From Actinomycetota bacterium (GTDB taxonomy: Bacteria; Actinomycetota; Thermoleophilia; Gaiellales; Gaiellaceae), in contig PKYN01000006.1 of the NCBI GenBank assembly GCA_003132665.1, positions 1 through 64,000 on the forward strand: 64,000 nt of DNA, read 5' to 3'. This document shows, piece by piece, positions 12,889 through 16,066 of this stretch. How positions within the stretch are numbered: position 1 is the stretch's first letter; each line of letters opens with the position of its first letter. A program made the position numbers and the translations under genes. The notes beneath the pieces are model-generated. The model was not told the DNA's origin and did not search any database. It saw only the letters and a list, made by a program, of their open reading frames with translations.

Positions 12889-13515
12889 CTAGTCGCCCCA
12901 GAGCCCTTTCCCCACCGGGAGTACGCGCTTCGACCCCATCCCGTTGACCACTCCTGCCGCCGAGGCGTACCAAGCGACCGCAGCGGTGACGATGCCCGCC
13001 CAGCCGCCGGCGTGGAGCCAGAAGTCTGTGCGGCCGTGAGCGACGAGGAGAAAGCCGACCGCCAGCAAAATCTCGGTGACCTCGAGCGTCAGGAACACGG
13101 CCAACGTCGCCAGGCTCACCCGGGACGCCCAGAGCACCATGTAGGTGTTGAAGATCGCGAACGCGATCAGGAACCAAGCCAGCGCGCTGTTTACCTGGGC
13201 CTTGTTCTGGAAGGCTGAGTAGAACGTGGTCTGGGTGTTGATTATCAAGACGAAGATCCCGAGCGAGAGCCAGAAGCCCCCGTAGCTCGAGAAGGCTGTC
13301 GCGCCAAAGACGTTGCGATTCCGGAACTCCCACATTCCGGCCAAAAGCTGGATCACGCCCCCATAGGAGATCGCCAGCCCAATCCAGATCCCGTCGGGGA
13401 TAAAGGTCGCGTTGTGTCCGCTCAGCATGAAGGTAGTGAGCGCGAACGCCGCCAGACCTAGCGGCGCGGGGTCGGCGACCCGCGAGAATCCTCGCTCTTC
13501 TGTCGCCTCGGCCAT
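12889..13515 (-). CDS. GPR1/FUN34/YaaH (SatP-like) acetate/succinate transporter
   Basis: A 208-residue protein with six hydrophobic segments. The family signature is at the N-terminus (DPAPLGLAAFALTTFMLS, usually N-P-A-P-L-G-L). FGATAFSSYGGFWLS matches the second conserved block. By family these are acetate/succinate-proton symporters or channels. ATG 13515 has an AAGGAGGA site 6 bases upstream, so the 17 extra upstream residues are rejected. The first Asn of the signature is Asp here. Confidence 0.88.
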   Translation of the reverse strand: MAEATEERGFSRVADPAPLGLAAFALTTFMLSGHNATFIPDGIWIGLAISYGGVIQLLAGMWEFRNRNVFGATAFSSYGGFWLSLGIFVLIINTQTTFYSAFQNKAQVNSALAWFLIAFAIFNTYMVLWASRVSLATLAVFLTLEVTEILLAVGFLLVAHGRTDFWLHAGGWAGIVTAAVAWYASAAGVVNGMGSKRVLPVGKGLWGD

Positions 13516-13636
13516 AGATTCCTCCTTGTCGTGGATCGCGGCACAACGACTGCACCGCCTGCGCAATCGTAAGCGGGCGATCGGCTGGTCAAGTTTCGCC
13601 AGAACCGCGCCCGCGGCGCCCGGAAGGCGCGAGCGC

Positions 13637-14413
13637 TCAGAGGATCTTGGAAAGGAAAGCCTTGGTGCGCTCGTGCGTGGGCGACTCGAAGAAGTGCTCG
13701 GGCGAGCCCTCCTCGATGATCACTCCCTCGTCCATCATCACCACGCGGTCAGCGGCGCGCTTGGCAAAGCCCATCTCGTGCGTGACGACGATCATCGTCG
13801 TGCCCTCGTGCGCCAGCTCCTCCATCACGTCCAGCACCTCGCCGGTGACCTCGGGATCGAGCGCGCTGGTGGGCTCGTCGAACAGCATCAGCGCCGGCTT
13901 CATCGCCAGCGCCCGGGCGATCGCCACCCGCTGCTGCTGCCCGCCCGAGAGCTTGCCCGGGTAGGTGTCCTTCTTGTCCGCCAAGCCGACGCGCGCGAGT
14001 AACTTCTCGGCGTCGCTGACGGCCTCTTGCTTGGAGACGCCGCGGACCTGAATCGGCGCCTCGGTTACGTTCTCGAGCGCCGTCTTGTGCGGAAAAAGGT
14101 TGAAGCGCTGGAAGACGAAGCCGATCTCGGTGCGCTGGCGGGAGATGTTCCGTTCGGAGTCCTCGACCAGCCTGCCGTTCTTCATCCGGTAGCCGATCGG
14201 ATGCCCGTTGACCTCGATCGAGCCGCCGTCGATCTTCTCGAGATGGTTGATGCAGCGCAGGAAGGTCGTCTTGCCAGAGCCGGACGTACCGATGATGCAA
14301 ACGGTTTCCCGCGGCCTGACGTCGAGTGACACCCCCTTGAGAATGTGCAATCGGCCGAAGTGCTTGTGCACCTCGGTCGCCCGCAACACGAGACCCTCCG
14401 GACTGGACGTCAT
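13637..14413 (-). CDS. Polar amino-acid ABC transporter, ATP-binding protein (GlnQ-like)
   Basis: A 258-residue nucleotide-binding protein with Walker [11 protein letters not shown]-loop FQRFNLF, signature LSGGQQQR and Walker [16 protein letters not shown], followed by a switch histidine (VVTHEMGFA). The lengths and motifs are those of the His/Gln/Glu type. Its ATG overlaps the permease stop as ATGA (14410-14413), indicating translational coupling. It energises the permease encoded just upstream for uptake of the amino acid bound by the lipoprotein at 15230-16066. Confidence 0.93.
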
Positions 14414-15159
14414 GATCGTCCTCGCCAACGTCCGCCGGCGCCGAATGGCCAGTCTCCGAGACGAGAGACTCCGCCACCCTCGGTCCAAACCGCAACAGCG
14501 CGCTCACGCAGCGACAGCTCGTCGCCATGCTCACTGACGGCAAGCCTGCGTTCGATCGAAGCCTGGACGATGCTCCAGATCGAGGTGAGAACGAGATACC
14601 AGAAAGCGACCGCGATAAAGGGCGCGACGTTCCCCGAGCTAGAGAAGACCTGTTCGGCGTCGCTGAAGAGCTCGTAGACGCCGATGATGTAAACGAGTGA
14701 GCTCGTCTTCATCATGTTGTTGAACTCGTTGCCGAGCGGCGGCACGATCACGCGTGCGGCCTGCGGCAGGACGATCCTCCGCATGATCGCGCCGTAGCGC
14801 ATCCCGAGCGACTTCCCGGCCTCCATCTGTCCCTTGTCGATGGAGTCGATCCCGGCTCGGATGATCTCGCGCATGTAGGCGCCCTCGTTGACGCCTAGGG
14901 CGAGGATGCCCGCGAACACTTCCTGCTTGAGAGTGAAGGCTCCGAAGCCGACTGTGCGCCCCGGGATGATGAGCCAGATGAACATGATCTGGACGAGTAC
15001 CGGCGTACCACGAAACACGAGCACGTAGGCGCCCGAGAGGAACCGCAGCGGCCTGAAGTTCGACATCCGCATGAGAGCCGCGATCAGGCCGAGGATGATG
15101 CCCAGCACCTGGGCGACGATCGAGATGTAGACCGTCGCCCAGAGTGCATGAACGAACAC
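14410..15159 (-). CDS. Polar amino-acid ABC transporter permease (HisM/GlnP-like)
   Basis: At least 249 residues with five hydrophobic segments and the EAA loop ([22 protein letters not shown]). GTG 15159 is the first standard start, but it has no ribosome site and leaves little before the first membrane segment. In frame upstream, an AGGAG at 15231-15227 sits before CTG 15222 and ATT 15219, which would add 20-21 residues reading LLITLGLVNWHLVWTR. The real start may be one of these rare codons, directly after the lipoprotein stop (15230). The C-terminus is unusually long and Gly/Arg-rich ([22 protein letters not shown]), perhaps only a consequence of overlap with the ATPase gene. Confidence 0.88.
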
Positions 15160-15229
15160 GCTGTCCGGATCGGCGATGCGCGTCCAGACGAGGTGCCAGT
15201 TGACCAGGCCGAGAGTAATCAGCAGGCTC

Positions 15230-16066
15230 CTATTTCTTCGCTAGCTTCGCGTTCTCGGCGTCGAGCATGGCCTTCTGGGTCGTGGCGGCCTGAACCGCGA
15301 CGACCTTTCCGCTCAGGGAGGCCAGATCGGTGATTCCAGCCGGGTTGCCCTTCTTGACCATGATCAGCGTTCCGACGGAGACGTAGTCGGAGAAGTCGAC
15401 CTCCTTGGCACGCCCCGGCGTATCCGAGAGGGCGCTGATGATCGCGTCGCACTTCTTCGCCTGGAGCGCGGGGATGAGCACGTCGAAGCCGGTCGTTTGA
15501 AACTCGGCCTTCTTCCCCCAAAGCTTGACGAGGGCGTTGGCGATGTCGATGTCGGCGCCGACGGTCTTGCCGTTCTCTATTGACTCCATGGGCGGATAGG
15601 TGGTGTCGCTGCAGAACTTGATCGTGCCGCCGCTGATGTTGGGAGCAGTCAGCGACGCCGGAGCAGCCGGGGGATTCGCGAGAGCGAATTGGCTGAGGCC
15701 CCAACGGCCGAGGATCTTCTGCATCTCGCCGGTCGCGTAGAGCTTCGCTATCGCCTGTTTGAAGCTGTTGCCGAGCGGATCGCCCTTGCGGGTGGCGATG
15801 CCTTCGGGCGTGGTTGCGAGCTGCTTTCCGGCGATCTCGTACTTGCCGGGGTTCTTCTTCATGTAGTAGAGGACAGGGGTGGCGTCGGCTGCATAAGCGT
15901 CGACCTTGCCGGTCTGCAGGGCGATGGCGGCGTTCGTGTCGGCCGGGAAGACTTTGATCGTGATCTGCTTACTCTTCGAGCTGCTGCCGCAGCCGGTCGT
16001 GGCCCCGACGATCAGCACGGTGACGAGCATCGCCCCCAACAGGGCGAAAAGCGTGCGTGTGCGCAT
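15230..16066 (-). CDS. Amino-acid-binding lipoprotein with circularly permuted family 3 fold
   Basis: A 278-residue protein. Lipoprotein signal 1-26 (lipobox ATTGC26). Residues 33-128 read as the C-terminal half of a family 3 solute-binding protein: AALQTGKVDAYAADATPVLYYM, then GIATRKGDPLGNSFKQAIAKL and GEMQKILGRWGL, normally the end of the protein. Residues 129-146 are an Ala/Pro-rich linker. Residues 147-278 read as the N-terminal half: TIKFCSDTTYPPME, VGADIDIANAL, FDVLIPALQAKKCDAII, DTPGRAKEVDFSDY, SLSGKVVAVQAATTQ, then stop. Both halves are complete and the frame is unbroken. AAGGA lies upstream of ATG 16066. It presumably binds a polar amino acid for the permease and ATPase downstream. 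Confidence 0.9.
   Translation of the reverse strand: MRTRTLFALLGAMLVTVLIVGATTGCGSSSKSKQITIKVFPADTNAAIALQTGKVDAYAADATPVLYYMKKNPGKYEIAGKQLATTPEGIATRKGDPLGNSFKQAIAKLYATGEMQKILGRWGLSQFALANPPAAPASLTAPNISGGTIKFCSDTTYPPMESIENGKTVGADIDIANALVKLWGKKAEFQTTGFDVLIPALQAKKCDAIISALSDTPGRAKEVDFSDYVSVGTLIMVKKGNPAGITDLASLSGKVVAVQAATTQKAMLDAENAKLAKK

Follow-up and report, generated by a model that had tools for sequence, protein, structure and literature searches.

Can an amino-acid-binding protein of family 3 exist in nature with the second half of its domain ahead of the first, and is such an arrangement a single oddity? The question is raised by one gene in a 64,000-nucleotide stretch of an Actinomycetota contig (the window). 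We read its product as an amino-acid-binding lipoprotein of family 3 (type II, GlnH/LAO-like) that has undergone natural circular permutation, with a probability of about 0.92 for this reading as a whole. It is the best explanation of what is observed: the segment order, its conservation in the genus, the normal order in the same operon of sister genera, purifying selection and retained binding positions. The gene and its importer partners are laid out as follows.

15230–16066, minus strand: circularly permuted family 3 solute-binding lipoprotein gene (278 aa plus stop)
15989–16066, minus strand: signal peptide and lipobox cysteine, residues 1–26 (...GATTGC), conserved in four genus mates
15683–15970, minus strand: residues 33–128, second half of the normal domain, now first (profile 177–278)
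15629–15682, minus strand: residues 129–146, Ala/Pro-rich linker from old C- to old N-terminus, fast-evolving
15233–15628, minus strand: residues 147–278, first half of the normal domain, now last (profile 39–176; SBP_bac_3)
14410–15229, minus strand: importer permease, start codon uncertain (BPD_transp_1, 100 bits)
13637–14413, minus strand: importer ATPase (ABC_tran, 125 bits)

The receptor gene runs from an ATG at 16066 to a TAG at 15230–15232, and AAAGGA is found 5' of the ATG. The original prediction had these coordinates right; we add that the strand is minus. It also described a normal signal peptide and lipobox ahead of the permuted domain, with permease and ATPase genes directly downstream, and both descriptions agree with our results. 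The signal peptide is MRTRTLFALLGAMLVTVLIVGATTGC, its lipobox GATTGC ends in Cys26, and residues 1–26 are kept in the four genus mates. Only eight residues tether Cys26 to the family 3 domain. The permease gene follows without a gap (78.9 bits against TIGR01726, cut-off 42.2), and the ATPase gene comes next, a position that it also holds in genus mates and in normal-order relatives.

Known SBP_bac_3 members usually have one linear N-to-C order, which is a description of those members and not a requirement of the Pfam model. The window protein does not follow it. Pfam SBP_bac_3 (PF00497) matched in two stretches with 108.1 bits against a curated cut-off of 26.4. We then used a normal-order profile of 279 positions, built only from 25 normal-order relatives. 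Profile positions 177–278 matched residues 30–130 (i-E 4e-38) and positions 39–176 matched residues 141–277 (i-E 6e-65). The domain is covered exactly once (profile 39–278), with the junction at 176/177 and no loss or repeat at the cut. Against the same profile each of the 25 normal proteins forms a single block, and four genus mates give the identical reversed two-block pattern; residues 33–128 are 75–100% identical across these mates. None of 1000 shuffled versions of the mature protein matched the profile at E ≤ 10. A phmmer comparison with AncQR (4zv1) aligned query 147–265 with chain 10–129 and query 31–122 with chain 137–230. The predicted order of second half before first is thus borne out by two partial matches, reversed and making up exactly one domain. 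Because the blocks are reversed, we class the protein as a permuted variant and not as an ordinary SBP_bac_3 member. By profile the linker spans about residues 131–140, compared with 129–146 in the original prediction.

The position of the cut had been misjudged. It had been placed at the crossover between the lobes; we find it inside lobe 2. It is flanked by the helix after SGKVVAV (helix 263–276 in the model) and the strand ITIKVF (strand 36–40 in the model). Aligned with the normal relative G035, it falls after ...AENKVLKKHGK and before AQITIKIYPAD..., that is, between a helix and the next strand, and therefore within lobe 2.

Structure prediction with AlphaFold2 used an alignment of five permuted proteins and the separate halves of normal relatives. 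The model is confident (mean pLDDT 88.3, pTM 0.82), including the linker residues, and is close in quality to a control model of the normal-order relative G116 (pLDDT 89.1, pTM 0.81). Once rotated, its secondary-structure elements equal those of G116 one for one. In sequential comparison with Foldseek and VIA-align, mainly residues 140–276 match amino-acid-binding proteins (Z about 10–12), whereas the normal-order control matched 222 of 226 residues of 4zv1 (Z 28.9). A part-only sequential match is expected of a permutation, but it is not a whole-domain superposition. On this modelling, one two-lobe domain with its old termini joined by the linker is predicted.

A search of close genomes for the same order and for an unpermuted ancestor had been suggested; we found the same order in the five other genomes of the genus and unpermuted relatives in sister genera. 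In total, 6 of 6 genus genomes have the permuted order. Five carry a complete gene (71–99% protein identity), and the sixth, G005, has the same order with an assembly gap within the gene. The other matched homologues in the family (103 genomes) and the order (129 genomes) are normal, and the normal-order relatives inspected have the same SBP-permease-ATPase operon. Within the family, permuted and normal versions are 60–74% identical. In trees of rotated sequences the permuted genus is nested among genes of normal order, with G116 and the G035 group next to it. Its five rows form one clade in two such trees (support 92/94 and 99/95). Trees with only two genus rows leave the exact joining unsettled, with both rows within one fully supported group.

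The linker, as far as sequence resemblance can tell, retains traces of both old termini. SQFAL before it matches the normal C-terminus (..SQFALKK), the stretch APASLTAPNISGG resembles normal N-terminal spacers, and APASLTAPNISGGTIKF resembles spacers such as IQAPASVKSAGSLVF. The permuted gene could have arisen from a normal gene that was duplicated in tandem and in frame; copy 1 would then have lost its first half while keeping the signal peptide, and copy 2 would have been truncated after its first half. These steps are inferred, and no half-way gene of this route was found in the window genus. Elsewhere, a 1016-aa frame (L141:1795–4845, minus strand) encodes a permease together with two SBP_bac_3 domains in tandem, an arrangement that trimming could turn into a permutant.

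The case described in the original prediction is not unique: we found five more permuted lineages, in two other Actinomycetota classes. The census covers Actinomycetota only. In a phylum sample of 396 genomes, three genomes of another genus matched unbroken through the permuted order and define a second lineage. This lineage is cut at the crossover from lobe 1 to lobe 2 (site A, profile 139–141/143–145) and occurs in 23 of the 69 genomes of its order, across several families; the other members are normal. Its complete copies that we inspected have permease and ATPase genes downstream, and the fragmentary contig G791 ends too early to tell. In a rotated tree the 23 genes form one weakly supported group beside normal relatives. 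The window genus is cut at a different place, site B (176–178/177–178). The permuted genes outside the window genus are:

L090:6567–7433, L091:6369–7235, L092:3481–4347 and L096–L115: second-lineage permuted SBP_bac_3 lipoproteins, from the class of G1102, G1098 and G834
L138:2556–3512, plus strand: G1102 permuted SBP_bac_3 gene, cut 141/147, site A
L140:2382–3281, plus strand: G1098 permuted SBP_bac_3 gene, site B, cut (with G1119) 173/181–183
L144:781–2241, plus strand: G1119 permuted SBP_bac_3 gene, site B, cut (with G1098) 173/181–183
L139:2729–3652, minus strand: G834 permuted SBP_bac_3 gene, cut 171/179, site B
L155:1390–2595, minus strand: G1231 permuted SBP_bac_3 gene, third class, cut 175/181, site B

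The G1102, G1098, G1119, G834 and G1231 genes each encode a lipobox, and a permease gene adjoins the permuted gene in all four flanks checked (G1102, G1098, G834, G1231). The G834 and G1231 lineages are represented by one genome each. In three of these loci a divergent normal-order SBP_bac_3-like gene immediately precedes the permuted one (L090:5412–6431, L138:1104–2375, L140:1253–2257).

Two candidates were rejected. In G112:C73 the apparent permuted match ran through a stop codon, and the gene is a normal one with a chance upstream extension. G880 is a tandem-domain fusion. A scan of plasmids for permuted genes gave only one long match, an Enterococcus receptor/permease fusion that probably has tandem domains, and otherwise partial matches.

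A tree built from 36 rotated proteins contains seven changes of order, of which well-supported branches force six. Bootstrap trees of the same proteins have 6–8 changes in 90% of cases. We are therefore highly confident that the order of family 3 binding proteins changed independently at least six times in Actinomycetota. Reversal to the normal order is possible in principle and unlikely. Every cut found falls at one of two places in lobe 2; this concentration may partly reflect search bias, because the queries carried those cuts. That the at least six permutations always used two neighbouring places in lobe 2 and were kept for an advantage of starting or anchoring the chain at lobe 2 (in folding, tethering or docking) is a tentative idea that we doubt somewhat more than we favour, and the advantage is untested.

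As a rule, natural circular permutants are recognised only among deeply diverged proteins. In the present case the two orders occupy the same operon in sister lineages, at 60–74% identity in the family of the window genus and at about 73% for G834, so ancestor and product can be compared directly. The most recent case is G834, whose genus mates G824 and G832 have the normal order at about 73% identity. Six separate permutations at two places, the cut chosen by biosensor engineers apparently being at one of the two, would be a natural experiment on which chain orders the fold tolerates, and the same events can bear on whether the anchored lobe matters for permease docking.

Both halves of the window protein are under purifying selection. 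Between distant genus pairs dN is about 0.07–0.19 and dS about 0.3–0.97 in the halves, giving a dN/dS of about 0.2–0.3 in each; linker dN between the more distant pairs is 0.30–0.88. Residues D154, Y157, F194, S211, R219, T263 and D61 align with LAO D11, Y14, F52, S69, R77, T121 and D161. All seven are invariant in the genus; D61 lies in the first segment and the other six in the second. The LAO contact numbering, in part general background, is supported by the titles of mutant entries.

Natural permutation in family 3 was not described in any paper that we found; the search was limited to open-access papers, and absence from them is not proof. The original statement that permuted members are not commonly described overlooked two precedents. 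One comes from Treponema pallidum: its glucose-binding lipoprotein TpMglB-2 (Tp0684), of type I, is circularly permuted in nature, and its authors proposed the class ‘Type Ic / Cluster Bc’ for it (PMC4990184). Like the window protein, it is a natural permuted binding lipoprotein in an ABC importer gene cluster. Unlike it, TpMglB-2 has the Type I glucose-binding fold; the window protein is SBP_bac_3, type II, and does not meet the Type I (sugar) criterion of sequence and fold. In TpMglB-2 the permutation affects the strand order of the N-lobe and adds a fourth crossover, whereas the cut of the window protein lies in lobe 2. The permuted part of TpMglB-2 hardly matches normal proteins (13% identity). 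Its authors suggested a link with membrane anchoring, to which permutation would be an adaptation (PMC4990184). Many normal relatives of the window protein are anchored as well, so anchoring alone does not explain the permutation here. Among normal-order relatives (L042 and L037 versus L038, L039 and L044) some have a lipobox, with a tether of about 19–33 residues, and others seem to have none, G116 and G035 (both near relatives) among them. Since lipobox presence varies in this way, anchoring has changed often in the protein's family.

The other precedent is engineered. A LAO-BP permutant was made by cutting one of the two linkers between the lobes and joining the old termini through (GGS)4; the resulting cpLAO-BP biosensor (after Okada 2009) still binds lysine, with a sensor affinity about 36-fold weaker (PMC5087393). 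Its cut, in one or the other of these linkers, corresponds most closely to natural site A. It belongs to the same family as the window protein and likewise has its old termini joined by a linker; it differs in being man-made and in its cut, which in the window protein lies at another loop (site B). With ordinary family 3 proteins (SBP_bac_3, type II / cluster F; GlnH, LAO, ArtJ) the window protein shares the sequence family, both lobes, the amino-acid contact positions and the role of lipoprotein or secreted receptor of a one-permease importer. It differs in its circularly permuted segments and in having the N-terminus and lipid anchor on lobe 2. Across the boundary of their two domains, tandem proteins of the GlnPQ type (6h30; G880) also run from second half through linker to first half. 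They have two complete domains fused to a permease, whereas the permuted protein is one domain.

Could the order be an error or a relic? A misjoin that swapped the halves of a normal gene deserves consideration, as these are metagenome assemblies and assemblers can be confused by tandem duplicates. We regard it as practically excluded by independent assemblies. Order, frame, signal peptide and junction are the same across species with 71–99% identical proteins, sampled by at least two projects (fen and Chersky), and the second permuted lineage spans 23 genomes, including one that consists of a single contig. A decayed remnant of a tandem binding-protein fusion has some background in the tandem domains of the second lineage's class (G880) and of GlnPQ (6h30). 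Open frames in all intact copies and a dN/dS of 0.2–0.3 in both halves led us to reject a pseudogene, and besides the receptor gene no other SBP_bac_3 gene was found in the genome (2.15 Mb, 77.5% complete); a non-functional remnant is accordingly highly improbable, if a little less firmly dismissed than a misjoin.

Two further rivals accept the permuted gene as real and question what its product does. Some family members are sensors (e.g. 3h7m), and the permuted receptor might serve sensing instead of transport. With permease and ATPase genes directly downstream in every genus mate and in the inspected normal relatives, we give this only a slim chance. The chance is barely larger for a domain-swapped dimer, in which the two segments of a chain pair with their counterparts in a partner chain and do not close on themselves, and we consider that very unlikely too. 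A new inter-segment linker can favour swapping, and AlphaFold2 monomer runs cannot exclude it. Because the AlphaFold2 alignment contained fragments of normal relatives, the packing of the two halves is only a prediction and a swapped dimer is not excluded. Against it, the linker is modelled confidently in the monomer; both native termini of the fold lie on lobe 1, and the engineered LAO-BP permutant, as a fusion, binds ligand (PMC5087393).

Most likely, then, the window protein works as amino-acid receptors of this kind ordinarily do, except that its anchor is on the other lobe. Its roles in binding and transport are inferred, without experiments. The short tether would anchor the mature protein at lobe 2 instead of lobe 1, the lobes would close on an alpha-amino acid (not specified further), and the receptor would pass this amino acid on to the homodimeric permease of the neighbouring gene, as its normal-order relatives would. 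Docking on this permease is an inference from gene order. As a permuted receptor of soil bacteria, with function inferred and not shown, the protein belongs to a phenomenon wider than had been claimed.

The gene neighbourhood is kept in the genus: ThrRS, a protein that we take to be a STAS protein from our own reading of its sequence, a DUF4232 protein, the binding protein, permease, ATPase and a Gpr1/Fun34/YaaH-family membrane protein. In the window the gene for this last protein follows the importer operon at 12889–13566 on the minus strand.
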